DNA from: Gammaproteobacteria bacterium
GTDB taxonomy: Bacteria > Pseudomonadota > Gammaproteobacteria > S012-40
Assembly (NCBI GenBank): GCA_029881255.1
Contig: JAOUMY010000003.1
Span: forward strand, 244,732 to 308,731
Direction of reading: 5' to 3'
Length of the DNA: 64,000 nucleotides
Each line of letters begins with the position of its first letter. Position 1 is the stretch's first letter. This document shows, piece after piece, positions 25,926 to 60,652 of the stretch. The notes beneath the pieces are model-generated. The model made no database searches and was not told where the DNA came from. It saw nothing but the letters and a program-made list of their open reading frames with translations. The translations under genes were made by a program, and so were the position numbers.

Positions 25926-27002
25926 TTAGGTCGCTGCGGACTCTTTGTTCTCGTCCTGATTCTTGGGCCAGGCATTGAGTACCGCTTTGACCAGTGTGGC
26001 CAAAGGTATCGCAAAGAAAATACCCCAAAAACCCCAGACGCCGCCAAAGAAAATTATCGCGACGATAATCGCAACCGGGTGTAGATTCACCGCTTCAGAA
26101 AATAAGAGCGGTACTAACACATTTCCGTCCAGTGCCTGGACTATGCCGTAGGCAATAATCAGATAGAAAAACTCTGGCGTCCAGCCCCATTGAAAAAACG
26201 CCACTAAGGCAACCGGAATCGTTACCACCGTTGCGCCCACAAACGGCACCAACACAGACAAGCCGACAAGCAAGCCGAGCAGCACCGAGTAGTTCATACC
26301 CATCAACGCAAAAACCAGATAGGTAACAAAACCAACGATGATAATTTCGACTATTTTTCCTCGAATATAGTTACCGATTTGTTCGTCCATTTCCCGCCAC
26401 ACCTGGGTAACCAGACCACGATCCCGTGGCAAATAGCGAGTCGACCACAATACGATTTGATACTTATCTTTGAGAAAAAAGAACACCAGCAACACGATCA
26501 GAATCAAATACACCATCCACGTAATCACGCCACGCAAGGATGCCAGGGAATACGACAGAACTGCCTGGCTTACCTTCGCAACTTCGGCGGCGATACTTTT
26601 CATGATGTCGCGAACCTGTTCCTCAGATATCAAATGCGGAAACTGCTCGGGCAACTGTAACAGCGCCTTTTGCGTGCTCGATATCATCTTAGGCAACTCT
26701 TCGATAAATTGTACGATCTGCTCAACTAACAGCGGTACCAATCCAACAATGCCTACGACTAAACAGACGAGAAACAGCGCGAATACGATGGGCATGGCAA
26801 ACTTACGTTTAATTTTGCGCCGTGTAAGCTGCCAAACGAGGGCCTCCAATAGATAGGCAATCACGATAGCGATCAACAAGGGTAATAGAATTTCTCCCAT
26901 ATAGATCACAATCGCGAACATGGAGACGAGTATCAGCGCAAGTATGACGGCCTGCGGGTTCGAAAAATGCCGGTAGTACCAGGTCTTGAGCATATCAATC
27001 AT
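25926..27002 (-). CDS. AI-2E family transporter (PerM/YdiK-like permease)
   Basis: The 358-residue membrane protein shows about eight hydrophobic segments and the family pattern PLLIAIVIAYLLEALV near the N-terminus, IGNYIRGKIVEIIIVGFVTY in the middle, and LVPFVGATVVTIPVALVA and EAVNLHPVAIIVAIIFFGG later. Members of this family export small molecules or ions; the substrate is unknown. Its ATG overlaps the stop of the 115-residue gene at 26999 by four bases (ATGA), so it is translationally coupled to that gene. It may be wired to the amidotransferase-like protein at 27346. Confidence 0.85.
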   Translation of the reverse strand: MIDMLKTWYYRHFSNPQAVILALILVSMFAIVIYMGEILLPLLIAIVIAYLLEALVWQLTRRKIKRKFAMPIVFALFLVCLVVGIVGLVPLLVEQIVQFIEELPKMISSTQKALLQLPEQFPHLISEEQVRDIMKSIAAEVAKVSQAVLSYSLASLRGVITWMVYLILIVLLVFFFLKDKYQIVLWSTRYLPRDRGLVTQVWREMDEQIGNYIRGKIVEIIIVGFVTYLVFALMGMNYSVLLGLLVGLSVLVPFVGATVVTIPVALVAFFQWGWTPEFFYLIIAYGIVQALDGNVLVPLLFSEAVNLHPVAIIVAIIFFGGVWGFWGIFFAIPLATLVKAVLNAWPKNQDENKESAAT

Positions 27003-27346
27003 GACTGGCCTTCCTTTAATCGCTGATAGTGCTTCTTAAATACAAGTTCGAGTTCCTCAATGACTTCTGTCCTACCGCGTCCCTGCATCACATGCTGGGT
27101 GACTAACACCGATGTTTCATTCAACATTTTCGATTTATCCAGCATAGGATAGGACTGTGACAAACGCTTAAGCGCCCCTACCACCGTCTCGCCTTCTTTC
27201 GCTGAAATTACATTCGGCTCCGATACTGGCAAAGATGTTGCCGCGTGCCTGCCTTGCAGGAACAACCCAAAGTCGAGCAAGGAATTACGGCCCTGCCCAT
27301 CCAGCTGACGAAAGATTTCGAGCAATTGTTTTTCGGTTTTATTCAC
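26999..27346 (-). CDS. Conserved hypothetical protein coupled to an AI-2E-family permease
   Basis: The 115-residue product starts at GTG 27346, overlapping the TAG of the upstream gene (TAGTG), and ends overlapping the permease start. It is mostly helical and charged (start NKTEKQLLEIFRQLDGQGRN, then ETVVGALKRLSQSYPMLDKS, end EVIEELELVFKKHYQRLKEG). No catalytic motif is visible. It may be a small adaptor between the gene products on either side. Confidence 0.75.
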   Translation of the reverse strand: MNKTEKQLLEIFRQLDGQGRNSLLDFGLFLQGRHAATSLPVSEPNVISAKEGETVVGALKRLSQSYPMLDKSKMLNETSVLVTQHVMQGRGRTEVIEELELVFKKHYQRLKEGQS

Positions 27347-28086
27347 TAGGATTCAACATTGATTCGAAATACGGGAGGTTTCTTACGTTCTGTCATCAAG
27401 TCCAGCGCTTTCACCAGAGCGACGATTACCGCATCGGTTGTTCTTTGAGATGTCTCCCATTCGTCGCGCGCCTGCTGCAAGATGTCGCCGATGTGATCCG
27501 GTGTCGATCGACCCGCTTCCATGATCATATCTTCAATCATCCCCGGTTTTAACTCAGGACGGAAAAGCAAACCATATACCAACTCGTTTGGCCTTATCGC
27601 GATCCAGTGTCCATAGTCATCCACTAACAGCGGCTCTAATCCTTCAGGTAATGATGCGTCGCCATTAAACATCACTAAGACCTTTTTTCCGTCTACGGAT
27701 TGCGCGAGTAAATCCTGTTTGCCCGCTGAGGTGATATGCGCTGTAGTCCAATACGCGTTGTGCAATGGCTCTGAAACAGGTGTTGCGCCATAAAATTCGG
27801 CCACCAACAAACCACCCATACCGATGCCCACCACAGGTCGTTTGGATTTTTCGAAAATGCCGATGAGATTCTTCTCAGATTCAAGCCAAGGCATGTTTTC
27901 CCTGTCCTGGCTAGGTATATGGCCACCCAATAGAAACATTGCATCAAACTGCAGCGCTGATCCCGGCAAATCCTGACCGACAAACGGACGAAAATAGTTG
28001 AAACCGATATCGCGTTTTTCTAATTGCGATTCGATCAAACCTAAAAACTCACTATAGTTATGCTGGATAATGGCGTAGTTTTTCAT
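27346..28086 (-). CDS. Class I glutamine amidotransferase-like protein lacking the catalytic residues
   Basis: The protein of about 246 residues has the flavodoxin-like amidotransferase fold pattern (YAIIQHNYSEFLGLIE; FDAMFLLGGHIPSQD; PVVGIGMGGLLVAEFYGATP; ELVYGLLFRPELKPG). Where active enzymes have GICxGxQ the sequence reads GIGMGGL, and the His of the HPE motif is Arg (FRPE). There is no cysteine in the whole chain, so glutaminase activity is unlikely. A start at 28119 would add 11 residues. It is the first gene of a tightly coupled trio with 26999 and 25926. Confidence 0.75.
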   Translation of the reverse strand: MKNYAIIQHNYSEFLGLIESQLEKRDIGFNYFRPFVGQDLPGSALQFDAMFLLGGHIPSQDRENMPWLESEKNLIGIFEKSKRPVVGIGMGGLLVAEFYGATPVSEPLHNAYWTTAHITSAGKQDLLAQSVDGKKVLVMFNGDASLPEGLEPLLVDDYGHWIAIRPNELVYGLLFRPELKPGMIEDMIMEAGRSTPDHIGDILQQARDEWETSQRTTDAVIVALVKALDLMTERKKPPVFRINVES

Positions 28087-28169: not shown

Positions 28170-29078
28170 CTATTCGAGCCCAGGATGGTCCTTGCAATAC
28201 TGACGTGCAAACTCGAGCAACTCGTCCATGGCGCGTTGACGGAATTTCTGTTTCTGGTGAACAAAAGAAAATGGTCTCTCTATCGGCGGATCCAGTTTGA
28301 TCGCAACCAGAGTACCCAAGGAGAGCTCCTTACTCAATGTGGCGCGTGACAATACGGTCATACCGATATTTGCCTCAACCGCGCCTTTAATGGCTTCAGG
28401 ACTACCGAGTTCCATAATCACATCAAGCTCATTAGGATTGATACCTATCCCATGGAGATATTCCAAAATCACCTCGCGCGTGCCTGAACCTTCTTCACGA
28501 CATATATAGGGATGTTCAAGCAATTGCGCCGGCGTAATTCTCGACTCACCTGCAAGTGGGTGCTTAGGCGGAACGATCACCACAAGCTGGTCTTTCTTAC
28601 ACAACTCAACCGCGAGATTCTTGTTCTGTACTGGCGCCTCAACCACACCCAGATCGATGACATTATTCTCAACCATCGACACAATACCCTCGGTGTTGGA
28701 GACTTTGAGTCGCACGTTTACATCAGGATATTTGTGTTTAAAATCACCCAGCAGAGAAGGCAGCATGTATTCCGCGATGGTGGTACTGGCGCCGATAATC
28801 AGGACGCCGCTGACCTCGCCGGTCAATTCTCTAACCGCATTTTCCATTGCCGCATATTGTTCGAAAATCTTGCCCGCATGCTCATACACCCGCTTTCCGG
28901 CTTCGGTGAGACTTATGCGGTTATGGGTACGATCAAACAGGCGGGTATTAAAATATTCTTCGAGCTGGCGTACCTGAAAGGTGACCGCCGGTTGGGTCAT
29001 ATGTAGGGTTTCCGCAGCCTTGGTAAAACTCAGCAGCTTGGCTACGGTGTGGAATACTTGTAATCTTCGATCAGCCAT
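28170..29078 (-). CDS. LysR-family transcriptional regulator
   Basis: The 302-residue protein has an N-terminal HTH (HTVAKLLSFTKAAETLHMTQ, then PAVTFQVRQLEEYFNTRLFD) and a substrate-binding domain (GASTTIAEYMLPSLLGDFK, REEGSGTREVILEYL). Pattern resembles CysB/CysL-like or Cbl-type members, but a ligand cannot be named. ATG 29078 has GAAGGTGAG upstream. It is divergent from the TM2 gene and a T-N11-A operator lies between them at 29133, which suits autoregulation and control of the neighbour. Confidence 0.92.
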   Translation of the reverse strand: MADRRLQVFHTVAKLLSFTKAAETLHMTQPAVTFQVRQLEEYFNTRLFDRTHNRISLTEAGKRVYEHAGKIFEQYAAMENAVRELTGEVSGVLIIGASTTIAEYMLPSLLGDFKHKYPDVNVRLKVSNTEGIVSMVENNVIDLGVVEAPVQNKNLAVELCKKDQLVVIVPPKHPLAGESRITPAQLLEHPYICREEGSGTREVILEYLHGIGINPNELDVIMELGSPEAIKGAVEANIGMTVLSRATLSKELSLGTLVAIKLDPPIERPFSFVHQKQKFRQRAMDELLEFARQYCKDHPGLE

Positions 29079-29170: not shown

Positions 29171-29725
29171 ATGAGCAGCGCCTGGGAAGAAATCGATCTC
29201 CACGGTAAAGGGGTACAGAGCGTTAACAAGCGCTTCATACGCGCGCGCAAACGCCCTCTTTTCGCCTATCTTCTCTGGTTCTTATTTCCACTCGGCGCGC
29301 ACCGAATTTATCTTCAAAGCGCGCTATTCGCAGCAATATACAGCTCTCTCAGTGCTATCAGTCTTATTCTATACCTCACCGAGACTACTTTCGCCTGGCT
29401 GCCACTGTTGAGCATGGGCGTGCTGGCTGTTGTCGATCTTGTTTGGATAGACCGACGCATAATTCAGATTAACAAAGAACTGCGTAGCGCTATCTACTTA
29501 CAACAAGACAAGGACACCATGCCTGACGCAAATTTTCGAGGAAAATACAGCCCCGATCACGATGATTATCTACGTGACTATACGGATATTAAAAATTCGG
29601 AAATCCCTGCGGACAAGCGCGTAGGACAGGATAAACGCGGCAAATCTTATACACCCTCCTTTGCCGAGCAAGAGGCACTATTACGTGAATTGGCGCGCCA
29701 AAAACAGGCGAGGACAGAAAAATAG
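29171..29725 (+). CDS. TM2-domain membrane protein
   Basis: The 184-residue protein has the TM2 pattern: two membrane helices around residues 28-75 with RPLFAYLLWFLFPLGAHRIY at the start of the first, then a long charged C-terminus (about 90-184). TM2 proteins are small inner-membrane proteins of mostly unknown role. It is divergent from a LysR regulator and just downstream of that regulator's operator, so it is a candidate target gene. Confidence 0.75.
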   Translation: MSSAWEEIDLHGKGVQSVNKRFIRARKRPLFAYLLWFLFPLGAHRIYLQSALFAAIYSSLSAISLILYLTETTFAWLPLLSMGVLAVVDLVWIDRRIIQINKELRSAIYLQQDKDTMPDANFRGKYSPDHDDYLRDYTDIKNSEIPADKRVGQDKRGKSYTPSFAEQEALLRELARQKQARTEK

Positions 29726-48088: not shown

Positions 48089-49237
48089 CTAATCATCGAG
48101 ATCTTCGTGAAAGGTTCCGATTTGCTCTCCCGCCATTTGTCGCCGAACGACATCGACATCTTTGTCATTTAGCGCGAAAGGAAAAGAATAGATATTGGTA
48201 GGTGAGGAATCACCGTAGGGTCGATTACAGGCCGACACTTCGTCGTCCTTACCTGGACAACCCGAGGTCTGAAAAGGTACGCCGGTACTGATTAGCTCTT
48301 CCAGCTCGGATCTTTCGATTCCGTAGTCGACGACCTGACCGGCGCTATTAAACGTCATATTACGCACATTGCCGCCGCGATAATCGATAATAAAACGCGC
48401 CAGTTGTACACGTCGCCACTGATCGGGAGAGACCGCTTCCCAGTCTTCCATCATCGAACCTTGCTCGGGGAAAAAGGCAAACATGTGATTATGCCCGCCC
48501 ATATCGCGTATGCGTTGGCAGATATCAAGAATCTCTTGTTCGGTTTCGCCCATACCACAGATTAAATGTGCACCGAATTTTTCGGGACCAAATATCTCCG
48601 CGGCCCACTCAATTGCCTGCCAATAACGCTCCCAGGTATGGGGACTGTCTACGGTTTTGCCTCGGGTACGTTCAAATATCTCTGGCGTGACTGCATCAAG
48701 GGCAACGGTAAAAATATCCGCACCGACCTCTTTCATTTCGCGAATATATTCATACGACATGGTAGTGGGATTGGACAATATCGATACCGGAATATGCGGC
48801 ACTTCTTTGACCCACTTTTTCAACATTTCCATCGAGTCATCATCGGAGTTCGGATGGGTGATCATGGAAATACACATACGTTCAAACGCGGCCTTGTCCT
48901 GGCCGGCTTTTACTCTTTCGATGACTTCATCATATTTCGCGGTCGGCCAATCAACGCGTATGAAATTTCTATCCGCGTAGTCTCGCGATTCCTCACGATG
49001 TCGCGCCAGACCACAGTAAGAACAATTGGCACGACAACCCTCAGGATAGGTAACTAACAAATTAAGACAATGAGTACACGAGGTTCGGTGCATATTACCC
49101 GGCACCAGGCCCAGGGTTATGGCTGCCGCTGTAGACATTTGCACATATTCTGGCGAGCGCATGTTCGGAGTTTTTACAAAATAATCTGGTTTGTAAAAAT
49201 TCAGTGGTGCTGTAACGTTTTCCGCCGTCGTACTCAT
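48089..49237 (-). CDS. lipS2: Radical SAM lipoyl-assembly protein, LipS-type (probably LipS2)
   Basis: The 382-residue protein has the radical-SAM motif CRANCSYC (CxxxCxxC) and a BioB-like following region (GLARHREESRDYADR), and a second cysteine cluster upstream (HRTSCTHCLN). Enzymes of this pair insert two sulfur atoms into octanoyl groups in the alternative lipoate assembly pathway found with sHdr. Which of LipS1/LipS2 it is cannot be decided by eye; I call it LipS2 because it is distal to lbpA. It is the last gene of the sHdr cluster, ahead of the 48059 hairpin. Confidence 0.8.
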   Translation of the reverse strand: MSTTAENVTAPLNFYKPDYFVKTPNMRSPEYVQMSTAAAITLGLVPGNMHRTSCTHCLNLLVTYPEGCRANCSYCGLARHREESRDYADRNFIRVDWPTAKYDEVIERVKAGQDKAAFERMCISMITHPNSDDDSMEMLKKWVKEVPHIPVSILSNPTTMSYEYIREMKEVGADIFTVALDAVTPEIFERTRGKTVDSPHTWERYWQAIEWAAEIFGPEKFGAHLICGMGETEQEILDICQRIRDMGGHNHMFAFFPEQGSMMEDWEAVSPDQWRRVQLARFIIDYRGGNVRNMTFNSAGQVVDYGIERSELEELISTGVPFQTSGCPGKDDEVSACNRPYGDSSPTNIYSFPFALNDKDVDVVRRQMAGEQIGTFHEDLDD

Positions 49238-49301
49238 TCGATACCCTCACTCAACACTGTTGCTCTGTTTGGCGTTCTGTTTAAACGATTTACCCGTATG
49301 T

Positions 49302-50426
49302 CTATAAAACTGCCGCCAGTTCCTGATGCTGTTCTTCAAAATACTCGTCGAAGGCGATCCATCCACGACGCATGATTTCATCATCATTGGCCCGATCGCC
49401 GCGCCAGAAATGTTTCAACCATAGTCGACGCTCTACCGCTCGGCCTATTGTCGTACCGTATTGTTCAAACACCTCGTCGACATACTCACCTAACGCTTCG
49501 GTATCACCATTAATGGTGTCGGCGATGGCACTACCTGCCCACTCGCCGGATTGCACTGCCGATGCAATACCTGCCCCGGTGATCGGGTGAGTTAAACCTG
49601 CCGCATCTCCTACGAAAACCACATCTTGTTCCACCAGGGTTTTGCGTATGCCGCCAACAGGAATGGCACCGCCTGTGCGCGATAATATGGTTTCACCTAG
49701 CACCCCTTCAAGCACTAGTTGGCGATGCAAATCATCCAAGGGAATTTTCAAATCCGGTTGGAAAAGTTTGTCTGCACCCATTCCGATATTGGCCACATCG
49801 CCCTTGGGAAACAACCAGGCATAGCCGCCCGGAAAATTATCGGATAACCAGATATCGGTGTCGAAGTATGGCTTTAACAAGGGCACGGTATACTGGCGCG
49901 TATTCACCGTGTCCAATGCATCGAGACCAAGAAAACGCGCAACAATCGAATGCGGTCCGTCGGCGGCAACCAGATAGCGATAATGTACATCGGCCATGTG
50001 ATCGCGAAACAATATCGTTGCGGAATGTCCAACGGGATCAATATCGGTTAAGCGTGTGTCGTCATATAACGTTGCACCTGCCTGCCGAGCCTTGGCCGCG
50101 AGCGCGCGATCAAACTGGGCGCGATCAATCATAATCCCAGGAAAGGGAGACTCTTCTACCGCGCCTGAGGGCAGGTATGTCTTCATACCTTCAACGGTTT
50201 GTACGCGCACCGGCGACGATGCTGCATAAGCGCCTAAGGGCATGGGAATAAACTCTGCGCATTGTACGGGCTCACCCAGGTGGCGTTTTTTGTCGATTCC
50301 AATAACCGATAAGCCCGCCTTGGCTACTGCCCAGGCCGCACTACTCCCTGCCGGTCCCAAGCCAACCACTAATACATCAACGGCTATATGCCGACGATCC
50401 AGGCGAACACCAAATGTCTCAGCCAA
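49302..50426 (-). CDS. lipT: FAD-dependent oxidoreductase, LipT-type (geranylgeranyl reductase family)
   Basis: This protein of about 374 residues is a flavoprotein of the geranylgeranyl-reductase family (VDVLVVGLGPAGSSAAWAVA, then VFVGDAAGLTHPITGAGIA). In sHdr-linked lipoate-assembly clusters the LipT protein of this type is proposed to pass electrons to LipS1/LipS2; that is known association, not shown here. The start is probably TTG 50426, with GGAAG upstream; it overlaps the lplA-type gene's stop by eight bases. A longer frame starts at 50474. Confidence 0.85.
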   Translation of the reverse strand: MAETFGVRLDRRHIAVDVLVVGLGPAGSSAAWAVAKAGLSVIGIDKKRHLGEPVQCAEFIPMPLGAYAASSPVRVQTVEGMKTYLPSGAVEESPFPGIMIDRAQFDRALAAKARQAGATLYDDTRLTDIDPVGHSATILFRDHMADVHYRYLVAADGPHSIVARFLGLDALDTVNTRQYTVPLLKPYFDTDIWLSDNFPGGYAWLFPKGDVANIGMGADKLFQPDLKIPLDDLHRQLVLEGVLGETILSRTGGAIPVGGIRKTLVEQDVVFVGDAAGLTHPITGAGIASAVQSGEWAGSAIADTINGDTEALGEYVDEVFEQYGTTIGRAVERRLWLKHFWRGDRANDDEIMRRGWIAFDEYFEEQHQELAAVL

Positions 50427-51507
50427 CAGATTCTTCCAAGGTTTCCAGCTGCAATGCTGACTCGATCGCTGCAATAAAATCTGCGCGCGACAACATCAAC
50501 ATTTCAACCGGGTAATTATCAAAAAAGCGATTCACATTCACACGCAAATCCGCGACGGGCGTGTCTTTCAATGCCGCTTCCAAATCTATGATCATGCGAC
50601 GTGGATTTACAAAAAAATCACCCGTAATCCACAACTGTTTGATGTGGTTGCGTTCCGTGTCTAACCCGACGGTGACGCGCATCAAGCCGCCTGCGGTTTT
50701 ACTGATTCCGTCCATATTGACCGAAGCCGATGCAGGTTTTTGATTCAGATAAACCCATTCCGACGTATCGATATCAGTCAGGTTTTCGGCGAAACGTCTC
50801 TTTTCAACTTCACTCAATTCGTCCGCTACAAAGAATTCCAGGTCGAGTTCTTTAGCAAAGGCCTTCATCATTTCGCTCTTAACTTTATCCAGAGCCGGCG
50901 CTTCACCAAGCAAATCTTTGAGATTGGCAACCCGCTCGCGTGCGGATTCAATCATTTTGTCATTGAGTTTTTCTGCAGGGATTTTCAAAACGCGCAGCAT
51001 ACGCTCAACATCGAAATCTACCAGCAAGGTACCTTGGTAAAGAATCGAATTACCGTCGAATGCGCCACCAGTTCCTGAGATCTTTTTACCATCCACCTCA
51101 ATATCATTGCGCGGACGAAACTCCGCATTCACACCGAGTGCGCTAATCCCCTTCGCTGCCGCTGTGCAGATTTTTTTGGCAATTTCGCCCATATCGGCGG
51201 TGCCGAGGGTTTGTTTATCGAGATACAACTCCCAGCCTATTTGTGTCTGATCGAAATAGATCGCGCCACCTCCGGTAATACGTCGCTGGATCTCGATACC
51301 GTTCTCTTTGCAATAATCTTCACGCAATTCTTGTTCGACGCTTTGATGAAAGCCTATCAGGGCGCTGGGGGGAAATTGCAGGAACCGCAGTGTATTGGGT
51401 ATAAAACCTTCCTGATGCAACTCCAATAAGGTTTTATTTAAAGCCATGTTTTCGGCCGCTGAACGCAAGCCGGTATCCAGGAGTCTCCAGCGTTTTTGAT
51501 CTCTCAT
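50419..51507 (-). CDS. sHdr-associated lipoate-protein ligase, sLpl(AB)
   Basis: The 362-residue protein is an LplA-type ligase: substrate-binding RRITGGGAIYFDQTQIGWEL and the catalytic-lysine region GKKISGTGGAFDGNSILYQG, plus an LplB-like accessory C-terminal domain (GGLMRVTVGLDTERNHIK). It would transfer lipoate or octanoate to the LbpA proteins. ATG 51507 has AAGGAG seven bases before it; an apparent start at 51528 lies upstream of this. It lies between lipS-type and lipT genes. Confidence 0.88.
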   Translation of the reverse strand: MRDQKRWRLLDTGLRSAAENMALNKTLLELHQEGFIPNTLRFLQFPPSALIGFHQSVEQELREDYCKENGIEIQRRITGGGAIYFDQTQIGWELYLDKQTLGTADMGEIAKKICTAAAKGISALGVNAEFRPRNDIEVDGKKISGTGGAFDGNSILYQGTLLVDFDVERMLRVLKIPAEKLNDKMIESARERVANLKDLLGEAPALDKVKSEMMKAFAKELDLEFFVADELSEVEKRRFAENLTDIDTSEWVYLNQKPASASVNMDGISKTAGGLMRVTVGLDTERNHIKQLWITGDFFVNPRRMIIDLEAALKDTPVADLRVNVNRFFDNYPVEMLMLSRADFIAAIESALQLETLEESVG

Positions 51508-51600
51508 CCCTACTCTCCTTATACTCATCTAATTTTAGTCCGCATCCGTGAACATCGGCTGGATGCAATATACAAAATCTATTCGGGTTGCGCCCAAGAG

Positions 51601-52758
51601 TTATCCCGAGACTATCTTTATATTTTGTAGTGCATGGCCGCGATTAAAAAAAGCAGGCCGTTTATTCGCACGCTCATGTGCAAGCACTTGCTCCAAATTG
51701 AGTTCAAGCGTATCCGCAGTTTCGTCCATGGACATAACTTCTTCGCCCACCGCGATTGAACAACATGCCGGCGTAACCTTTACCTGTCGTTCCAGACGTG
51801 CCGCCAGTTCAACAACGCCTTCGGCTGGATGCGCAATACCGCTCATTCCCGCCATAACCGCATAGCTGTCGATTTTAACCTTGGCCAGTCCTGGCGGACG
51901 TGCGCATCCCAGTAACAAGGGTGTATTTGGCAATGCCTCACGAGCATCCATAAAAAAGCGACCCACCTCGGTAGTATCAGGTGTTTTAAACGGACGCTTT
52001 TCAGGCGCATACTGTGGCATGACCACCACCAGCACGACCGCATCAGGTGTATAGCGTTGCAACATTTTTAGGGCCTGCCATTCACCGAGCAATTGTCCAT
52101 AGTGCAACCCGATGACGATATGGGGAACGACTTTCATTTTGGTGTTGACCAGTGAAGCCAGCGTCGCTTCGAAATCATCAACTGTACGTTTTAAATGATA
52201 AACCTGCGTAATGGTTTCCTGAGCGCCAATCACATCCATCATCGCAGCGTCTATGCCGGATTGCTCCATGGACAAGGCGATATCATCATTCACCAGGGCG
52301 GTGTGCATGGCTATTTTAAAAAACGGAAATTCATCTTTTATGCGTCGTATTGTGGAATAGTACGAGTCGTATTCGACTTCATTACGGTGATTTGAACCGC
52401 CGGTTATCAACATACCCCGGCCACCCTGTTCAATCACGCGATTGACTACGCGCCATAATTCTTCCGGCGTTTCCGCCGCTATCATCGGCTCGAGTATTTT
52501 CGCCTTGCAGTGATCGCATTGCAGTTTGCACTTGGCTCCAGTAATCGATACCGCTGGCCAGGCACTACTGCTACTGCATGCACTGAGTTCCGAGCTGAGA
52601 TAGGTTTTAAACGTCGGGGTATAGAAATTTATGCCATTTAATTTGGCCGAATCAGGTAATCCCGACCAGTGTGATTCCATATATTGAATGAGATCCGAGT
52701 CCAGTTCGATATCTTCTAAGGCTTCGACACGTTGCGCGGCGCCCATCCAGTCAAACAT
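51601..52758 (-). CDS. lipS1: Radical SAM lipoyl-assembly protein, LipS-type (probably LipS1)
   Basis: The 385-residue protein has the radical-SAM motif CKLQCDHC (CxxxCxxC) within VSITGAKCKLQCDHCKAKIL, and a later GLHYGQLLGEWQALKML region. It is the second LipS-type protein of the locus, placed next to lbpA and lplA; lipoate assembly by two radical-SAM proteins is the known pathway. TTG 52764 is also open; ATG 52758 has GAGG upstream. The LipS1 label is tentative. Confidence 0.8.
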   Translation of the reverse strand: MFDWMGAAQRVEALEDIELDSDLIQYMESHWSGLPDSAKLNGINFYTPTFKTYLSSELSACSSSSAWPAVSITGAKCKLQCDHCKAKILEPMIAAETPEELWRVVNRVIEQGGRGMLITGGSNHRNEVEYDSYYSTIRRIKDEFPFFKIAMHTALVNDDIALSMEQSGIDAAMMDVIGAQETITQVYHLKRTVDDFEATLASLVNTKMKVVPHIVIGLHYGQLLGEWQALKMLQRYTPDAVVLVVVMPQYAPEKRPFKTPDTTEVGRFFMDAREALPNTPLLLGCARPPGLAKVKIDSYAVMAGMSGIAHPAEGVVELAARLERQVKVTPACCSIAVGEEVMSMDETADTLELNLEQVLAHERANKRPAFFNRGHALQNIKIVSG

Positions 52759-52849
52759 ACCCAACCTCGTTAATCACGACTTGAAAACAGCGGAGAGATA
52801 TTGCGGTCTTGTGCCACCATTTCCAGTGACACAAGACGACAACAATGCA

Positions 52850-53290
52850 TCAATTACAACCGTCGAAACCTTCCGAATTCATCTTCGATTCGAAAGCACT
52901 TGTGGCTGCGCCACCGGTAACCAGATCGGAGGAATCGCCATCCCAATCTTCAGGTTTGATCTTTACCAGCCAACCGTCGCCATACGGGTCGCTATTGATT
53001 AAGCCGGGAGTGCTAGAAACCGCGTCATTGATTGCAACGACTTCACCCGCTACAGGAGACTTCGCCGGACCTACCCATTTGCCGGATTCGACCGTAGCAC
53101 AGGATTTGTCTTTCTTGACATCCTTACCTACTTTCTTCGGGGTATAAGAAACGATTTGACCCGCAAGCGCCGCTGCATATGATGTCATGCCCACCGTGAT
53201 GGTGCCGTCATCTTCCTTGCGCGCCCATACATTATTGTCCACGTTGTAACTCAGATCTTCAGGTATTTCACAGCCTCGAACTGCACCCAT
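52850..53290 (-). CDS. lbpA2: Lipoate-binding protein LbpA, copy 2
   Basis: The 146-residue GcvH-like protein has the lipoyl-lysine segment CATVESGKWVGPAKSPVAGE with Lys71. sHdr-linked LbpA proteins carry lipoate as a covalent cofactor essential for sulfur oxidation. ATG 53290 has GGGAGGAG before it. A second copy (53816) has the lysine at the same position. Cys at 7 is shared with copy 1 in the N-terminal segment (GCEI/NGCEF). Confidence 0.92.
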   Translation of the reverse strand: MGAVRGCEIPEDLSYNVDNNVWARKEDDGTITVGMTSYAAALAGQIVSYTPKKVGKDVKKDKSCATVESGKWVGPAKSPVAGEVVAINDAVSSTPGLINSDPYGDGWLVKIKPEDWDGDSSDLVTGGAATSAFESKMNSEGFDGCN

Positions 53291-53411
53291 GATGCACTCC
53301 TCCCGGATTAATATACAAAATAAATGTGGTAAAACCCGTTTCCGCGCAGAAATGATTTCCACGCCCCTCGCTATTTTTCTTTAGCAAATTATTCGATCGT
53401 GCGTCTACTGT

Positions 53412-53813
53412 TCAGAAGGATAATACCTTATCGGCACTGAGTATCAAGTCCGCAAACACACCGCCGCCAACGACTTCATCTACTTCGTCGATTAAATCAA
53501 TATCAGGATCGATTTCATAACCCGGTAGCGCAGGCATGCAGCAAACGATTTTAACACCGGCCTGCTTGGCGTCGCGCAAAAAATCAATTATCAGCTTGCC
53601 ACCATCCATTGCGACCAGCGTATCGGCGATACCTTTACGCAAAAGATTCACACCTTCCATGGTGAAGAAGAGTTTAACCTCCGCATCCATCGCCGCTAAT
53701 ACTGTCGCTACAAAAAATGGCGTCGCACATCGATGCGGCGTACTTGGTCCGCTCGTCATCATAATCATGACACTTTGTTCTTCATCGCTATCAATATAAT
53801 GGGAGTCAGCCAT
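53412..53813 (-). CDS. DsrE-family protein
   Basis: The 133-residue protein has DsrE-type features: a first strand MIMMTSGPSTPHRCATPFFV, a middle VKLFFTMEGVNLLRKG, and a strand with adjacent cysteines VKIVCCMPALPGY that would bind sulfane sulfur. It starts two bases after the lbpA1 stop, between the two lbpA genes. It probably takes part in intracellular sulfur transfer, but it is not the DsrE3A type at 60185. Confidence 0.85.
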   Translation of the reverse strand: MADSHYIDSDEEQSVMIMMTSGPSTPHRCATPFFVATVLAAMDAEVKLFFTMEGVNLLRKGIADTLVAMDGGKLIIDFLRDAKQAGVKIVCCMPALPGYEIDPDIDLIDEVDEVVGGGVFADLILSADKVLSF

Positions 53814-53815
53814 CG

Positions 53816-54259
53816 CTATTTTCTCTCACACTGTATATCTTCCTTCGCCACCCGTGCGCAATAACCCTGTTTCGCTTCATCACCGGTTTTAAAAACCGAC
53901 AGATAATCCTGTTGACCTGACGCCGGTTTAACGCGGGCAATCCAGGCACCATAAGGATCAGAGTTCAACAAGCCGGGAGCATCCAGTACTGCGCTATTGC
54001 CCTCAAGAATTTCGCAATCAATCAGATTGGGCACGGGGCCTGCCCACTTGCCACTTTCCACAGTGGCTACAGGTTTTCCTGCGGGGCGGAGGGTGCCAGG
54101 TTTACGTACCCGAACATGCAGAATTCTTCCCGCAATAGACTGGGAGATATCGGTCATACCAACTTTGAGCGTGCCGTCAGTATCGACAGATACCCAGATC
54201 TGGTATTGATCATCATAGTAAAGTTCGGGAATAAATTCGCATCCGTTGCATTCGATCAT
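53816..54259 (-). CDS. lbpA1: Lipoate-binding protein LbpA, copy 1
   Basis: The 147-residue GcvH-like protein has the lipoyl-lysine segment VATVESGKWAGPVPNL with Lys71, and GLLNSDPYGAWIARVKP near the end. It is predicted to be lipoylated by the lplA-type ligase at 50419. It lies between shdrB2 and a DsrE gene. Two LbpA copies of similar length with a DsrE gene between them are unusual in my knowledge. Confidence 0.92.
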   Translation of the reverse strand: MIECNGCEFIPELYYDDQYQIWVSVDTDGTLKVGMTDISQSIAGRILHVRVRKPGTLRPAGKPVATVESGKWAGPVPNLIDCEILEGNSAVLDAPGLLNSDPYGAWIARVKPASGQQDYLSVFKTGDEAKQGYCARVAKEDIQCERK

Positions 54260-54335
54260 TTAAAACGTTCCCTTTTCGACAGGCAAAACAGAGAGAACTA
54301 GAACGCTCTCTCTGCGCGCAATCCAGAGTGAGTAA

Positions 54336-55247
54336 TTACAACACACCTTTTTGCTTCAGGAAATCGATCGAATCGCTGACATTCTCGTGTATACCCAATT
54401 TGCGTGCGGACATCCCCAGGGAAAGCCCCAGCAATTGAGTAAAATAGAGTATCTTGACGTTGGTTTTAATACCAAACACCTTCTCCGCTCGCACCTGATG
54501 CATTTCCAGGCCAGAGTGACAGGTAGGACATTCGGTTGCAATCACTTCCGCACCGGAGTCTTCTGCGGCTTGCAGGAGGTTCAAAACCAGTTGTGTAGAC
54601 GTGTCTGCATCAGACAAAGTGTGCGCACCACCACAACAGGCAGTCTTGAGCGGATAATCCACGTTTTCAGCACCGGCGGCACCGAGCAAATCATCCATAT
54701 AATGTGGCTTATAAGTAGACTCCGATCCTGGGCCGGCATCTTTCTCGGGAAAGATCTGGCGTGGTCGCGTATACATACAACCGTAGTAATTGGCGATTTT
54801 AATTCCGTTGAGCGATTTCTTCATGCGCTCCTTAATACCCTCAGAGCCGATTTCCTCCATCAGCCACTCGAGTAAATGCACGGTGCGCACATCGCCTTTA
54901 TATACCGGGTCATTGGCCTTCTTGGCCAAGTCCTGAACCGTGTTCAATGCGTCCGGCGAGGTGGCCAGTTCATACTCAGCCTTTTTGAGATTGTGATAGC
55001 AACCGTTGCATGGCGCCATCACCGTATCGAAACCCATCTGCTCAGTGGCGATCGCCAGATTACGTGCCGACAAATAGGTCTGCAACATGGGGTGCACATT
55101 TTTTACTTCCATAGCACCGCAACAGTTATAGTCGCGCAGGTTTTCCATTTGCAGCTTTAACTCACCTACAATCGCGCGCGTAGATCTGTCGTAAGGCCCA
55201 CCGGTACCTTCCAATGCACAGCCGGGATAATATGCCACCTTAGCCAT
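54336..55247 (-). CDS. shdrB2: sHdrB2, heterodisulfide reductase-like subunit B
   Basis: The 303-residue protein contains two canonical CCG-type cysteine-rich motifs: YNCCGAMEV with PCNGC, and TACCGGAHTL with ECPTC, preceded by YPGCA and YYGCMY. These bind noncubane iron-sulfur clusters in HdrB. It is part of the cytoplasmic sHdr complex. Its start overlaps the sHdrC2 end by eight bases. Confidence 0.93.
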   Translation of the reverse strand: MAKVAYYPGCALEGTGGPYDRSTRAIVGELKLQMENLRDYNCCGAMEVKNVHPMLQTYLSARNLAIATEQMGFDTVMAPCNGCYHNLKKAEYELATSPDALNTVQDLAKKANDPVYKGDVRTVHLLEWLMEEIGSEGIKERMKKSLNGIKIANYYGCMYTRPRQIFPEKDAGPGSESTYKPHYMDDLLGAAGAENVDYPLKTACCGGAHTLSDADTSTQLVLNLLQAAEDSGAEVIATECPTCHSGLEMHQVRAEKVFGIKTNVKILYFTQLLGLSLGMSARKLGIHENVSDSIDFLKQKGVL

Positions 55248-55956
55248 GTGCAGCCTCCTTTTGTTCCTTCACATATTGCTTTAGCACTTCGCCTGTCTTA
55301 CCCCAGGATTTGGTCTTGGGTGGAAACAACACATGCAAGCCGGAATGAATCAAATGCTTTAGCGGTAGATGCTTAATCATGCGCTTAACCATTTCCACAA
55401 ACCAGTCCTGCATCAGCGCCTGGCCTGTCTTGGCAAAAAAGTTTTTCAATACCGCGCTGTCTTCTATGCGTCCGCGTTTTTGAATTTGATCCCAGAATTC
55501 TTCATCGAAGTGCGCGGCCGGACTCTTTTCGGTAATGCCCTGATCTTCCATCCAATGAGAGAGTGCCTTCATCACACCTTCGGGGCGTACGTCTTTAGGA
55601 CAGATATGCGTACATTTGTTACAGGAAACACACTGCCAGATAATGTCTTTGTCTTTGATGATTTCGTCGGTCAGACCGAGTCGTGTCAGATAAATCCAGT
55701 AGCGTGGATTGAAGTTCACGTTTTGCGCGTACATGGTACAGGAGTTGGTACACGAACCACATTGCCAGCAGCGATGTACATTCTCTCCGCCGCCGTAGGC
55801 CTGTATGGTTTTCTCGAAATGTTCATTGTAGTCACGCAGAGTGCGTGGCGTAATCATAGTGTTCCAGTGCCCGGAAACATCCACGCCTTCGATGACCAGA
55901 TTATCTTTGGTATGCAAACGTTCCGCATCAATCAAGGATTTTTCATGGATAGCCAT
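55240..55956 (-). CDS. shdrC2: sHdrC2, heterodisulfide reductase-like subunit C
   Basis: The 238-residue protein has two ferredoxin-like cysteine motifs, CWQCGSCTNSC and CVSCNKCTHICP, each for a [4Fe-4S] cluster. It is predicted to pass electrons between sHdrA and sHdrB2. The order Hyp-C2-B2 and the overlap with shdrB2 fit the complex. Confidence 0.92.
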   Translation of the reverse strand: MAIHEKSLIDAERLHTKDNLVIEGVDVSGHWNTMITPRTLRDYNEHFEKTIQAYGGGENVHRCWQCGSCTNSCTMYAQNVNFNPRYWIYLTRLGLTDEIIKDKDIIWQCVSCNKCTHICPKDVRPEGVMKALSHWMEDQGITEKSPAAHFDEEFWDQIQKRGRIEDSAVLKNFFAKTGQALMQDWFVEMVKRMIKHLPLKHLIHSGLHVLFPPKTKSWGKTGEVLKQYVKEQKEAAHG

Positions 55957-56004
55957 GCATTTCTCCGTTACTTACGTTTTCCGCTGTTTACGCTGCCGGT
56001 CTCG

Positions 56005-56850
56005 CTAGTGAATCACGTTTTGTTTGACCCGCAGCCTGCCACTCCGTTTACCCGCTTCTATACCCAACAACTTACAAATAAAATCTATCGGTTCTATTCT
56101 TCCACCAAACTCACCCGCCATCATGCCGACACCACTCGACATCGCAATAAAATAGTCGGCGTATGCCTGAGCCAATAAGAGATCGACCATGAATGGTACA
56201 TCCCGGTAATAGCCTTGCTCGGCAATTTGTTCCGCCAACCAGACCCGTGCGGCTTCAAACTGTCCCGGCTCATTACTAATGGGAACATCAGACATCCCAT
56301 CATTGCTGCGAATAAATTCTCGCAAGGCACCGCTCACCGATCCGCTATCCCATACCCAGCGTGTCATTAACGGGTATTTACCTGGCGCAAAAAAATGCAG
56401 GGCTTCCGCCGCAAAATCCCAGGCGGCCCGTTTTATTTTGCGATTGTCGGTAGCAAACAAATCGGCAAATGACCCCATACGTTCGCTAACGTTTTCTCTT
56501 CCATGCATCAGGATCGACATCTGCTTTAACAACGCTTCATGAGAAACGGCGTCTGTTCCAGTTGGCAATTTTCTACGCGCGGGAAACACCGCGTCCAACA
56601 AAATCGCAAATCCCTCAGCATCAAGTTCCGGCAATTCACTTGCGGACAAGGCATCTTGAAACAAGTGGTGCTTGGTATTCAGCGCTTCAATATATTGTTC
56701 CAGTCCACCACGTTCTTCCGCCGCTTCGATCAGTTGATTTAATTTATGAGCGCAAATGTTCTTATCGAGCTCAACCTGTAGTGGCACAGGAGCAACACGA
56801 TCGCCATTGACATCATGAAGTGCCGCAGAGTTTTTCTTGAACCACAGCAT
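56005..56850 (-). CDS. Conserved sHdr-cluster hypothetical protein (Hyp)
   Basis: The 281-residue protein occurs between shdrA and shdrC2, the position of the conserved hypothetical gene of sHdr clusters. It is soluble and largely helical (LSASELPELDAEGFAILLDA, KRAAWDFAAEALHFFAPGKY), with no cysteine pattern. Its function in the complex is not known. Confidence 0.8.
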   Translation of the reverse strand: MLWFKKNSAALHDVNGDRVAPVPLQVELDKNICAHKLNQLIEAAEERGGLEQYIEALNTKHHLFQDALSASELPELDAEGFAILLDAVFPARRKLPTGTDAVSHEALLKQMSILMHGRENVSERMGSFADLFATDNRKIKRAAWDFAAEALHFFAPGKYPLMTRWVWDSGSVSGALREFIRSNDGMSDVPISNEPGQFEAARVWLAEQIAEQGYYRDVPFMVDLLLAQAYADYFIAMSSGVGMMAGEFGGRIEPIDFICKLLGIEAGKRSGRLRVKQNVIH

Positions 56851-56870
56851 GCGCGTTTGCCTTTGGAAAC

Positions 56871-57899
56871 CTATTTTAGATCCGCAATAGCGCGCATAGC
56901 CGCAGCCGCGCCCTGCGAAATCGAATCATCTATTGTTTCCGGACCATAAGCAGCACCTGCCGCATATACACCTTTTCGTGTCGTCCCGCAGGTGTTGGTA
57001 TAATGCTCTGCGCGCTCGATATAGCCATGTTTTTCGAGACCAACCCCAAACACGTTGGAGATTTCGGGATTGTTTTCATTAGGGTCCATGCCTATCGCGT
57101 GAACAACGATATCAAACGGGATAACAATGGGACGTTTAACCAGGGTGTCTTCACCCTTAACCAGCAAACGACCATCCGCAGAACGTGTAACTTCGGCAAT
57201 ACGCGCCTTGACGTATTTGACTTTAAACTCTTCCTGCGAACGCCAGTAAAAACGATCCTCGTATAAACCGAAGGTGCGAATATCCATGTAGTAGATAAAG
57301 ACATCGGTTTGCGGAGACATCTCTTTTATTTCCATGGCCAGATTTGCGGACACCGTACAACAAATCTTTGAACACCATTCGCGACCAATTTGACGGTCGC
57401 GCGAACCAACGCATAAAAGAATTGCCACGCGCTCAGGTACTCGTCCATCAGATGGACAGGCAATCTTGCCTGCACTCACCATTTGTTCCATTTGCGTCGT
57501 CGTCAACACATCTGGAAATGTACCGAAACCCCACTCGGGCTTATTTATCGAATCAAAGTGTGTAAACCCTGTGCCTAACACCACTGACCCTGCATTGACT
57601 GTCTTACCGTTGCTCAAGGTTGCGGTAAATTTACCCACGTCCCCGTCTAACTTAGTAACTTTACTTCCCTTGTGGACTGCGATGTTGCCATCATTTTCTA
57701 CACGACTGACCATGCGACCTATTGCGTCTTTGGCCCATTCACCAGACGGTACTAGCTTGGCGTAGCCGGATAGTATTGGCGCCCCACCCAGTTTGTCTTC
57801 CATTTCAACCAGAACAGCTTTCTTGCCCGCTGCGCTTACCGCTGCCGCTGCTGACAAACCAGCCGGTCCACCACCTACTATCAGTACCGTATCAGACAT
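56871..57899 (-). CDS. shdrA: sHdrA, heterodisulfide reductase-like FAD subunit
   Basis: The 342-residue protein begins with the FAD-binding motif IVGGGPAGLSAAAAVSAAGK and has a cysteine cluster LLCVGSRDRQIGREWCSKIC suited to a [4Fe-4S] cluster, then GVYAAGAAYGPETIDDSIS. It is the short form of HdrA typical of sHdr. It starts five bases after shdrB1. Confidence 0.93.
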   Translation of the reverse strand: MSDTVLIVGGGPAGLSAAAAVSAAGKKAVLVEMEDKLGGAPILSGYAKLVPSGEWAKDAIGRMVSRVENDGNIAVHKGSKVTKLDGDVGKFTATLSNGKTVNAGSVVLGTGFTHFDSINKPEWGFGTFPDVLTTTQMEQMVSAGKIACPSDGRVPERVAILLCVGSRDRQIGREWCSKICCTVSANLAMEIKEMSPQTDVFIYYMDIRTFGLYEDRFYWRSQEEFKVKYVKARIAEVTRSADGRLLVKGEDTLVKRPIVIPFDIVVHAIGMDPNENNPEISNVFGVGLEKHGYIERAEHYTNTCGTTRKGVYAAGAAYGPETIDDSISQGAAAAMRAIADLK

Positions 57900-57904
57900 T
57901 GATG

Positions 57905-59311
57905 TTAGCCCCCAATCGCGAGTTTTGGATCATAGAGATATTCGATTTTGCCTGCTTCAACTTCTTTCAGATAGGCTTCGAATTTAACCTTGGCGTCACC
58001 CCAGCTAATTCCCATTTTCTCCACGACTTCTTCACATGGTGAGGCGTGCCATTGCAGTTGTACAATCTTGAACGGATCGGCGCCACATGCGAGTGCGGCA
58101 AATTGCACATCGGCCATAATCGGTAAATTAAATTCCTGATTATGAGAACGACCTATCCATTGATTCTTATCCATTGTTGTAATACAGCCGGTGTCTATGC
58201 CTAACATCACGTCAGCATTTGCCTCCTGGCGTGCGACTTTGATTTTTCTATCCATCGTGAAAGAACGGGTAAATTCGCGCTCTGAAATGATGTGACGGAA
58301 ACCAAATCCACAACAGTCATACCAGGTTGAGTAATCAATAACATCAGCGCCTAGCGCCTGAGCGATGGAAGTACCCGGTGCAGTACGATTACCACCGAGT
58401 ACATCTGGGTCGTAAATCGCATCTTCATGTACCATCTTGTAGTAGTGACACGCCGCGTGCACGGTTGTACGAATATTGGAAACATCGATGGTCTGTAATT
58501 CATTGGCAATACGATTACGCATTACATGAACCCATTCCGAATAGTGAATAATCTCTTCCGGTATCACCAGCTTGCCGTCAACCAGACGACCAAGCTTACC
58601 CAGTATCTTTTTTACCTTTTCACGGAGTGCACTCGACTCGACCAGATACTTGCGAATTTCTTTATAATTTCCGAAAGAAGTACCGCAGTGGACAAGTGGA
58701 TAAAAATGACCTGGTTTGTAACCCATGCGGTTACCTGAGACATAGGCCTGATGAAAGTTGCGTAAGAATACGGCAGCGAGTGATTCAACGTTGCCTATGC
58801 CTGAACCGTGATAGTTCCATGCCGTACAGGAGGTCTGATCTGTTTCGTCCAGATAATCTTTACCGGGGACAAAACCAAACTTGTTCATGAACCACATCAA
58901 CGAAGTCGGATAACCGGGAATATTGCCGCACTGGCCGCAAGATTTGTGATGCCACAACTGAGTAACCGGGACTTTTTTATCCCAGCCAAAAAGCGTCTTT
59001 ACGACTTCAGGTTTGTGATCATCGGTTATGCGATGAACTATGATTTCGCCATCTTTTTCCAGTTCCCACATGTGTTCGCGTATATCATCCATACGCTCAC
59101 CAAGATCGACGGTGCGACGGTCCACATGTTTTCGCACCCACTCTGTCGCCTTGATCGCATCTTCGCCAGAAAGATTCGATGCCTGAAAGAACGAGCCATG
59201 GCCAGCAATACCTTGGCCATCGGTGTTATGAAACCCTGGCTTCATGGTCCCAGGACCGGCGCCATCGGGGCCAGTATTGTGATTACCAGGTTTGTTGGTG
59301 TCGTTGCTCAT
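57905..59311 (-). CDS. shdrB1: sHdrB1, heterodisulfide reductase-like subunit B
   Basis: The 468-residue protein is longer than sHdrB2. Its C-terminal CCG-type motif is present (YDCCGFGFRH, upstream HAACHYYK, downstream DTGCITT). The N-terminal motif is degenerate: KSCGQCGN, then SCTAWNYHG instead of CCG and VHCGTSFG instead of CxxC, so at most one canonical noncubane cluster is expected. ATG 59311 has GGAGG upstream. It follows shdrC1. Confidence 0.92.
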   Translation of the reverse strand: MSNDTNKPGNHNTGPDGAGPGTMKPGFHNTDGQGIAGHGSFFQASNLSGEDAIKATEWVRKHVDRRTVDLGERMDDIREHMWELEKDGEIIVHRITDDHKPEVVKTLFGWDKKVPVTQLWHHKSCGQCGNIPGYPTSLMWFMNKFGFVPGKDYLDETDQTSCTAWNYHGSGIGNVESLAAVFLRNFHQAYVSGNRMGYKPGHFYPLVHCGTSFGNYKEIRKYLVESSALREKVKKILGKLGRLVDGKLVIPEEIIHYSEWVHVMRNRIANELQTIDVSNIRTTVHAACHYYKMVHEDAIYDPDVLGGNRTAPGTSIAQALGADVIDYSTWYDCCGFGFRHIISEREFTRSFTMDRKIKVARQEANADVMLGIDTGCITTMDKNQWIGRSHNQEFNLPIMADVQFAALACGADPFKIVQLQWHASPCEEVVEKMGISWGDAKVKFEAYLKEVEAGKIEYLYDPKLAIGG

Positions 59312-59360
59312 GGCAAAACCTCCACGTTATAAAACGTTTAGTACGAAAAGAAACGACGAC

Positions 59361-60050
59361 TCAATCGTCGTCTTCTTCCTGTTCTTCAAGCCATTCTTCG
59401 TATTCTTCGCGTTTTTCATCGATGAAATCTTCGATGACATCGAAGAGGTTCTCATCCATTAACTCCAGCGCGTCCAGTACGCCTGTCATTTCCCAAATGG
59501 TATACATTTCGACAGATGTCTTGAGACTGACTTCCCAAGCGGTATCCGTCGTCTGCAGTGTTTTTACTGGAATCGCTTTGCGCAGCGTTTTGAGATTGCC
59601 TTCAACTTTTTGAATATTGGGACCCCAATCGGGAAAGTGATCGGGTTGTATCATGTCGGGGGAAAGCTGATTGCCGGTGGTAATCAATTTAAGCATGACG
59701 CGGCCAAACGGACGCAACACATCTTTTGCCGATTGCATGCCGTGTTTGATGGAGACTTCACGCATGATAGCCACCAGACCGCCGGGAGAATTCTTAAACG
59801 GACAACGTGCGGCGCAAGTCATGCATTGCGCGCATGCCCAGATTTTTTCCTGCATTGCATCGTAAATCTGATCGACGTTTTCTGTCCAAAGCAGTTGGAC
59901 AATTTCTCTTGGGCTATAGTCGTAGAATTGCGCGGAAGGACAGGTGGCGGTGCAAATACCGCAGTTTAAGCACCCATTGAGTTCGTGATCATAGCGGAAA
60001 TCGCTGCGGATATCGTCGAATATCTGCTGCATTTGTGCGTAGGTAGCCAT
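59361..60050 (-). CDS. shdrC1: sHdrC1, heterodisulfide reductase-like subunit C
   Basis: The 229-residue protein has two [4Fe-4S] motifs: CLNCGICTATCP (Cys27, 30, 33, 37) and CAQCMTCAARCP (Cys73, 76, 79, 83). The C-terminus is very acidic (EEYEEWLEEQEEDDD). It is the first gene of the shdr block, separated from dsrE3A by a terminator-like hairpin and a possible promoter. Confidence 0.92.
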   Translation of the reverse strand: MATYAQMQQIFDDIRSDFRYDHELNGCLNCGICTATCPSAQFYDYSPREIVQLLWTENVDQIYDAMQEKIWACAQCMTCAARCPFKNSPGGLVAIMREVSIKHGMQSAKDVLRPFGRVMLKLITTGNQLSPDMIQPDHFPDWGPNIQKVEGNLKTLRKAIPVKTLQTTDTAWEVSLKTSVEMYTIWEMTGVLDALELMDENLFDVIEDFIDEKREEYEEWLEEQEEDDD

Positions 60051-60116
60051 GCCTTAGATTGCTCCTTCCGTTCAGTTAATACCGAAAACAAACCATCCCA
60101 ACTCATCCACTATATG

Positions 60117-60145
60117 ATTATATTCTGATAATAACACCGATAAAA
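60117..60145 (-). promoter_or_regulatory. Possible internal promoter before shdrC1
   Basis: On the minus strand a TATAAT -10 box (60117-60122) lies about 60 bases before the shdrC1 ATG. The -35 region is weak (TTTATC at 60139-60144). It follows the terminator-like hairpin at 60141. Confidence 0.3.
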
Positions 60146-60169
60146 AAGGGCGATTTATCATCACCCTTT
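60141..60169 (-). terminator. Terminator or attenuator between dsrE3A and shdrC1
   Basis: AAAGGG at 60145-60150 pairs with CCCTTT at 60164-60169, with GAT/ATC extending the stem and one mismatch. On the minus strand a T-run follows. It would limit read-through from tusA-dsrE3A into shdrC1. Confidence 0.65.
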
Positions 60170-60184
60170 CTTCTACGGCCGAAA

Positions 60185-60652
60185 CTACATATAAAGGTTG
60201 ACGTCAGATTCGCCGGCAAACTCAAAAAAAGTTGCTGCGCCGCCATATTCAATCCCATCAATCAAATCGCTATGTTTGAAATCAAACAAATCGACTGTCA
60301 TTTGACAGGCAATAATCTTTACGTCTGCTTCTATGCAAAGATCGCGCAGTTCGAGCACATCTGCGACACCCTTTTTCTTCATCTTTGCCTTCATCATGGA
60401 AGTCATCATGGCTTGCATGCCCGGCAAAGCCTGCATCATTACTGGGACTGGCATAGGCATAGGCATCGCAGGATTTCCCAGCGATGTCACTTTCAGATCC
60501 AGCTTCTTCTTTAACAATTGCAGCCCATAAAAAGTGAAGAATATCTGCACTTCATAACCCAGCGCGGCCGCCGTTGACCCGAGAATGAATGGGGGATATG
60601 CCCAATCAAGCGAGCCTTTGGTTGCGATAATCGCGAGTTTTTTTTCGTCCAT
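60185..60652 (-). CDS. dsrE3A: DsrE3A-type sulfur-transfer protein
   Basis: The 155-residue protein matches the DsrE/DsrF/DrsH-like family used with TusA and sHdr: start KLAIIATKGSLDWAYPPFIL, a Met/Pro-rich loop MPMPMPVPVMMQALPG, and a strand with the probable reactive cysteine VKIIACQMTVDLF. It is expected to accept sulfane sulfur and pass it to TusA. It is 86 bp downstream of tusA. Confidence 0.9.
   Translation of the reverse strand: MDEKKLAIIATKGSLDWAYPPFILGSTAAALGYEVQIFFTFYGLQLLKKKLDLKVTSLGNPAMPMPMPVPVMMQALPGMQAMMTSMMKAKMKKKGVADVLELRDLCIEADVKIIACQMTVDLFDFKHSDLIDGIEYGGAATFFEFAGESDVNLYM

Follow-up and report, generated by a model that had tools for sequence, protein, structure and literature searches.

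What does a protein with the fold of a glutamine amidotransferase do once the residues that would make it an enzyme are gone? The question is raised by a gene in the window analysed here, a stretch of 64,000 nucleotides from a gammaproteobacterial genome, where it lies behind the gene for a LysR-type regulator and ahead of those for a small all-helical protein and an AI-2E/PerM-type permease (Table 1). The initial annotation described the amidotransferase-like gene and the latter two as minus-strand genes overlapping start to stop, and proposed a membrane sensor or transporter unit in which a dead amidotransferase-like protein serves as the non-enzymatic, ligand-binding subunit. The description of the genes, including their coordinates and the overlaps TAGTG (1 nt in common) and ATGA (4 nt in common), stands in full; the partnership with the permease, as argued below, does not. 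Sulfur oxidation by sulfur-oxidizing heterodisulfide reductase-like (sHdr) systems is widespread, but neither the inventory of its components nor its mechanism is yet complete, and on the strength of sequence comparisons we put at roughly 0.62 the probability that the gene is a genomically displaced counterpart of LipX, a non-catalytic accessory of the sHdr pathway.

Table 1. Genes of the two loci discussed, with positions in the window
Feature	Coordinates	Strand	Basis or remark
AI-2E/PerM-type permease, 358 aa	25926..27002	-	PF01594, E 4e-73
Small all-helical protein, 115 aa, GTG start	26999..27346	-	no family assigned
Pseudo-amidotransferase, LipX-like, 246 aa	27346..28086	-	alignment, AF2 model, GATase fold by Foldseek
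LysR-type regulator	28170..29078	-	neighbourhood counts
TM2-domain membrane protein, divergent from LysR	29171..29725	+	neighbourhood counts
lipS2, lipoyl synthase component of sHdr-associated lipoate cluster	48089..49237	-	
lipT-like FAD oxidoreductase	49302..50474	-	TIGR02032
slpl(AB), lipoate-protein ligase	50419..51528	-	
lipS1, lipoyl synthase component	51601..52764	-	
lbpA, GcvH-like lipoate-binding protein	52850..53362	-	LbpA2 by cluster order
DsrE3-like sulfurtransferase	53412..53813	-	
Second lbpA, GcvH-like	53816..54259	-	LbpA1 by cluster order
shdrB2	54336..55247	-	
shdrC2	55240..55956	-	cluster order
'hyp' gene of sHdr cluster	56005..56850	-	
shdrA	56871..57899	-	marker in co-occurrence survey
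shdrB1	57905..59311	-	
shdrC1	59361..60050	-	
dsrE2, sulfur carrier	60185..60652	-	NF047629, above cutoff

Fold and catalytic residues

Foldseek matches an AF2 model of the window protein (pLDDT 90) to GATase structures with a probability of 1.00, the best being 1o1y (E 1.9e-15) and 8khs, DnfC (E 2.9e-15), and the model clearly predicts a class I amidotransferase (flavodoxin-like GATase) fold. The sequence itself scores below the cutoff of the Pfam GATase family (19.2 vs 22.8 bits), and its match to the NCBIfam PRK07053/PRK06490-type GATases is weak (E 4e-15; 55.7 bits vs a curated cutoff of 250). Class I enzymes of that type (PF00117; PDB 9xfs, 1o1y, 3m3p, 8khs) have the fold in common with the window protein, at Foldseek E values to 1.9e-15, together with weak sequence similarity; they carry a Cys-His-Glu triad, whereas the window family has Gly for Cys, Arg for His, and a distinct conserved C-terminal extension.

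Alignment to Cys-bearing relatives and to PDB 9xfs places Gly89 (codon 27820-27822), within the motif GIGMGG, at the position of the nucleophile, and Arg176 (codon 27559-27561), within FRPE, at that of the catalytic His, while the triad Glu is retained as Glu178. The earlier observation that the protein has no cysteine, and FRPE in place of HPE, is thereby confirmed, with a cysteine count of zero. The total absence of cysteine is incidental, because relatives have 0-8 cysteines elsewhere in the chain; as judged from the alignment, the trait of the family is the loss of the nucleophile and the His.

That loss extends to the whole family. In an alignment of 43 rows, the window protein included, with relatives 53-69% identical, Arg stands at the His position in all 43, the nucleophile position holds Gly (in one case Ala), and none of the 40-odd relatives with 50-69% identity has the Cys or the His; 20 additional rows from genomes of the class show the same dead triad. 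The oxyanion glycines are mostly retained, Leu replaces the Gln of GxCxGxQ in most members, and a C-terminal motif, RPExKPGxxEDxxME, is nearly invariant. Among 74 close pairs the median dN/dS is 0.093 and the maximum 0.22. By these measures the pseudo-amidotransferases are an old pseudoenzyme family under strong purifying selection, and local decay of a single gene, tried as an explanation, is ruled out by the family-wide loss of the residues together with the low dN/dS. Homologues with both Cys and His, which would have pointed to such decay, are absent from the clade, and the next relatives, of the LipX type, also lack the Cys; both residues are present only in paralogues ~20-33% identical, such as the copy in the same genome at C1:1106038. 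The proposal of a non-enzymatic amidotransferase-like protein is thus borne out, in so far as a triad loss conserved throughout the clade can indicate it.

LipX as the nearest relative

The nearest homologues beyond the clade of the window protein, at 34-36% identity and without the Cys, are members of sHdr operons, where slpl(AB) immediately precedes them and dsrE3 follows. This is the published position of lipX in sHdr clusters (Hden_0687; PMC10451225). LipX itself is called only a putative glutamine amidotransferase (PMC10332631), appears in descriptions of sHdr clusters as 'putative glutamine amidotransferase' or 'GATase1' (PMC10332631, PMC10451225, PMC6067878), and has been placed among the lipoate-assembly enzymes (PMC11582611; PMC10332631). 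The linked LipX proteins have Gly at the nucleophile position and Gly in place of the triad Glu, and carry HPG or NPG where the window family has an invariant RPE; since the HPG form has a His at the position of the family's Arg, the chemistry of the cleft may differ between the two. They resemble the window family in the loss of the nucleophile and in N-terminal QHT..xYLG and C-terminal KxxMxEDxxMEF-like motifs, and differ from it in location, the one lying in the slpl-dsrE3-shdr cluster and the other elsewhere, behind LysR.

Phylogenetically, the unlinked genes, the linked LipX and a homologue from genome G378 form one clade (support 100/100) apart from 17 Cys-bearing GATases. Within it the unlinked genes and the linked LipX fall into separate subclades, each at 100/99, and G378 is a long branch of uncertain position. 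The dead amidotransferase of G378 (L131:6870-8278; motifs GIELGGQ and HPQ) is encoded away from sHdr, with hemL on one side and, on the other, a divergent DsrE2-like gene that is followed by a cysteine dioxygenase-like gene. The sHdr cluster of that genome has, ~2.4 kb away (L197:4271-5670), a gene for a LysR 54% identical to that of the window, whose neighbour is TusA-like by eye.

The two forms complement each other in their distribution. None of the genomes searched closely has both the unlinked gene and a linked LipX: sHdr clusters without lipX accompany the unlinked gene, and genomes with linked lipX have no unlinked gene. The window is a case in point, as a search of its genome for LipS1 matched inside the window itself, ~20 kb from the pseudo-amidotransferase, where a full cluster (48089-60652) has the order dsrE2-hdrC1B1A-hyp-C2B2-lbpA1-dsrE3-lbpA2-lipS1-slpl-lipT-lipS2 and lacks lipX. 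From the tree and this distribution, the unlinked clade may stem from an ancient duplication or be a LipX orthologue that has moved.

Co-occurrence with sHdrA

The distribution of the gene follows that of sHdr closely. Among 369 genomes of Gammaproteobacteria in the GTDB sense, with sHdrA scored as present at E<=1e-60 and gene-bearing loci from a separate contig collection left out of the counts, 23 carry the pseudo-amidotransferase or its sHdr-linked relative, 22 carry sHdrA, and 22 have both (Fisher p 1.6e-34, kinship ignored; 13 families). The sole mismatch, G346, has the gene without sHdrA and is a genome 75% complete; one of the 22 sHdrA genomes, G178, carries the gene as a linked LipX. 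Within the family of the window's organism, sHdrA (>=84% identity) is present in 7/7 genomes with the gene and in 0/6 without it, the latter having at most distant HdrA paralogues of ~35% identity. In other classes a dead relative accompanies sHdrA in four of four genomes, linked in G380, G425 and G609 and unlinked in G378. LipX is likewise always found in sHdr-bearing genomes where this was tested.

How much of this pairing reflects common descent or proximity has to be weighed. In most genomes of the class the gene is unlinked to sHdrA, the distance being 219-773 kb in G031, G117, G273 and G367; the loci lie ~20-30 kb apart in the window, G038, G132, G183 and G246, so some of the co-inheritance could be physical. 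On a tree of the adjoining LysR, at least 5 gains or losses of the gene fall on well-supported branches, and the best tree has 8; with the 39 genomes for which both traits are known, presence changes 6 times, and the well-supported independent pairs are concordant in 3/3 cases, too few for significance. The co-occurrence is partly phylogenetic. Because the pairing with sHdr carriers is nonetheless near-exact, the protein probably assists that pathway in a non-catalytic capacity rather than belonging to a membrane sensor.

sHdr enzyme or lipoate assembly

The alternative that survives best, though we consider it unlikely, is a catalytically dead lipoate-assembly factor that aids LipS1/S2 and sLpl(AB) in building lipoate or placing it on LbpA. 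The linked relatives do lie directly after slpl(AB), and the literature groups lipX with the lipoate-assembly genes (PMC11582611, PMC10332631). Two genomes speak against it by separating the two functions. G117, a single contig 99% complete, combines sHdr with two lbpA genes and the pseudo-amidotransferase, and in it LipS1 was not found genome-wide, nor any lip genes in the sHdr cluster. G003 (L199:7312-13250), conversely, retains lipS2-lipT-slpl-lipS1-lbpA2-dsrE3-dsrE2, lacks the block from hdrC1 to lbpA1 in the cluster, and has no pseudo-amidotransferase. In E. coli, moreover, lipS1-slpl(AB)-lipT-lipS2 without lipX suffices for the lipoylation of LbpA (PMC10332631), although lipX could still raise the efficiency of the reaction or act on LbpA1. 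Taken together, G117, G003 and this reconstitution make it more likely that the protein works with the sHdr enzyme itself than that it helps to make lipoate, and the dissociation, which is one genome each way, suggests that the pseudo-amidotransferase follows sHdr and not lipoate assembly. The arrangement of G117 (L198:5156-12184), sHdr and two lbpA genes without LipS1, is of separate interest, since LbpA there must be lipoylated by another route.

Gene neighbourhood

The immediate neighbours of the gene tell of a unit in which it is a guest. LysR lies directly upstream of the pseudo-amidotransferase in 52/53 loci, with a 4-nt overlap in many, and on the downstream side the small protein follows within 150 nt in 48/54. 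LysR is also present in 20/20 loci without the gene, and 17 of these 20 keep the order LysR-small protein-AI-2E. This order being intact without the gene, LysR-small protein-AI-2E is the older unit, and the pseudo-amidotransferase, inserted between LysR and the small protein, is, with the TM2-domain gene, an optional member. The small protein is found in 133/369 Gammaproteobacteria (GTDB sense) vs 23/369 for the pseudo-amidotransferase. Members of its family are usually flanked by a conserved LysR on one side and an AI-2E permease on the other, with PhoH convergent, in a conserved unit without a name; no Pfam model passes for it, the only similarity being a weak N-terminal one to DUF2281, and it has no solved relative and no structural match (E 2.7 or worse). 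The divergent TM2-domain gene stands in 48/50 loci with the pseudo-amidotransferase and 0/20 without it, which makes its product a further candidate for an sHdr-associated part.

These counts bear on the possibility that the protein is a ligand-sensing partner of the adjoining LysR, reporting sulfur or nitrogen status. The near-constant position directly behind LysR, often with overlapping genes, and the restriction of the TM2 gene to loci with the pseudo-amidotransferase would fit such a partnership; the regulator's presence in many genomes without the gene does not, and the sHdr-linked relatives have neither LysR nor the small protein beside them. We regard it as improbable. A search of the open-access literature found no paper joining LysR, an amidotransferase and a pseudoenzyme.

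Less probable again is an enzyme whose old cleft has taken on another chemistry, one that needs no cysteine. The invariance of Arg176 and Glu178, the glycines kept at the oxyanion site and the extremely conserved surroundings of RPExKPG could be read in this way, but the elbow has no nucleophile, with Gly in nearly all members and the Gln of GxCxGxQ mostly replaced, the linked LipX lacks the Glu, and no set of residues for a new active site is common to both subclades.

The membrane sensor or transporter with AI-2E is the weakest reading, hardly credible in spite of the overlapping genes in the window and its family, and it is ruled out as a partnership by the neighbourhood counts: AI-2E comes immediately after the small protein in 15/45 loci with the gene, being absent there from the other 30/45, vs 17/20 loci lacking the gene, which makes AI-2E the older neighbour, and sHdr predicts the presence of the gene far better. 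What the window has in common with AI-2E/PerM permease units (PF01594) is a permease beside the small protein; the genes that belong together are those for the small protein, LysR and AI-2E, and the pseudo-amidotransferase is optional.

Proposed role and implications

We therefore return to the reading of the protein as a displaced, non-catalytic counterpart of LipX. From its residues it is predicted to hydrolyse no glutamine. The former active-site cleft (Gly89, Arg176, Glu178), together with the helices of the invariant C-terminus (KPGMIEDMIME... to residue 238), would instead bind some ligand or partner from the sHdr machinery, for which an sHdr subunit, lipoyl-LbpA or a thiol sulfur carrier are candidates, and this binding would help to assemble, load or regulate the machinery. 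The site of the gene behind LysR and ahead of the small protein-AI-2E unit would probably serve co-regulation rather than joint work with the permease.

A broader proposal, to which we give even odds, is that a dead amidotransferase is a universal non-enzymatic part of proteobacterial sHdr sulfur oxidation, acting as a chaperone, subunit or sulfur-carrier adaptor. Two circumstances would have kept such a component from notice: in Beta- and Gammaproteobacteria its gene lies away from the sHdr cluster, next to LysR, and the cluster-linked form has been taken for a lipoate-assembly enzyme. While sHdr clusters and LipX are already known, we found in the open-access literature no account of LipX as a pseudoenzyme, of an unlinked counterpart pairing with lipX-less sHdr clusters, or of its tracking sHdr over LipS1. 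If the proposal is true, it adds to the sHdr pathway a conserved protein invisible to gene-cluster surveys, LipX would be reclassified as a pseudoenzyme with its assignment to lipoate assembly brought into question, and the TM2-domain membrane protein is flagged as a further possible part of the pathway.
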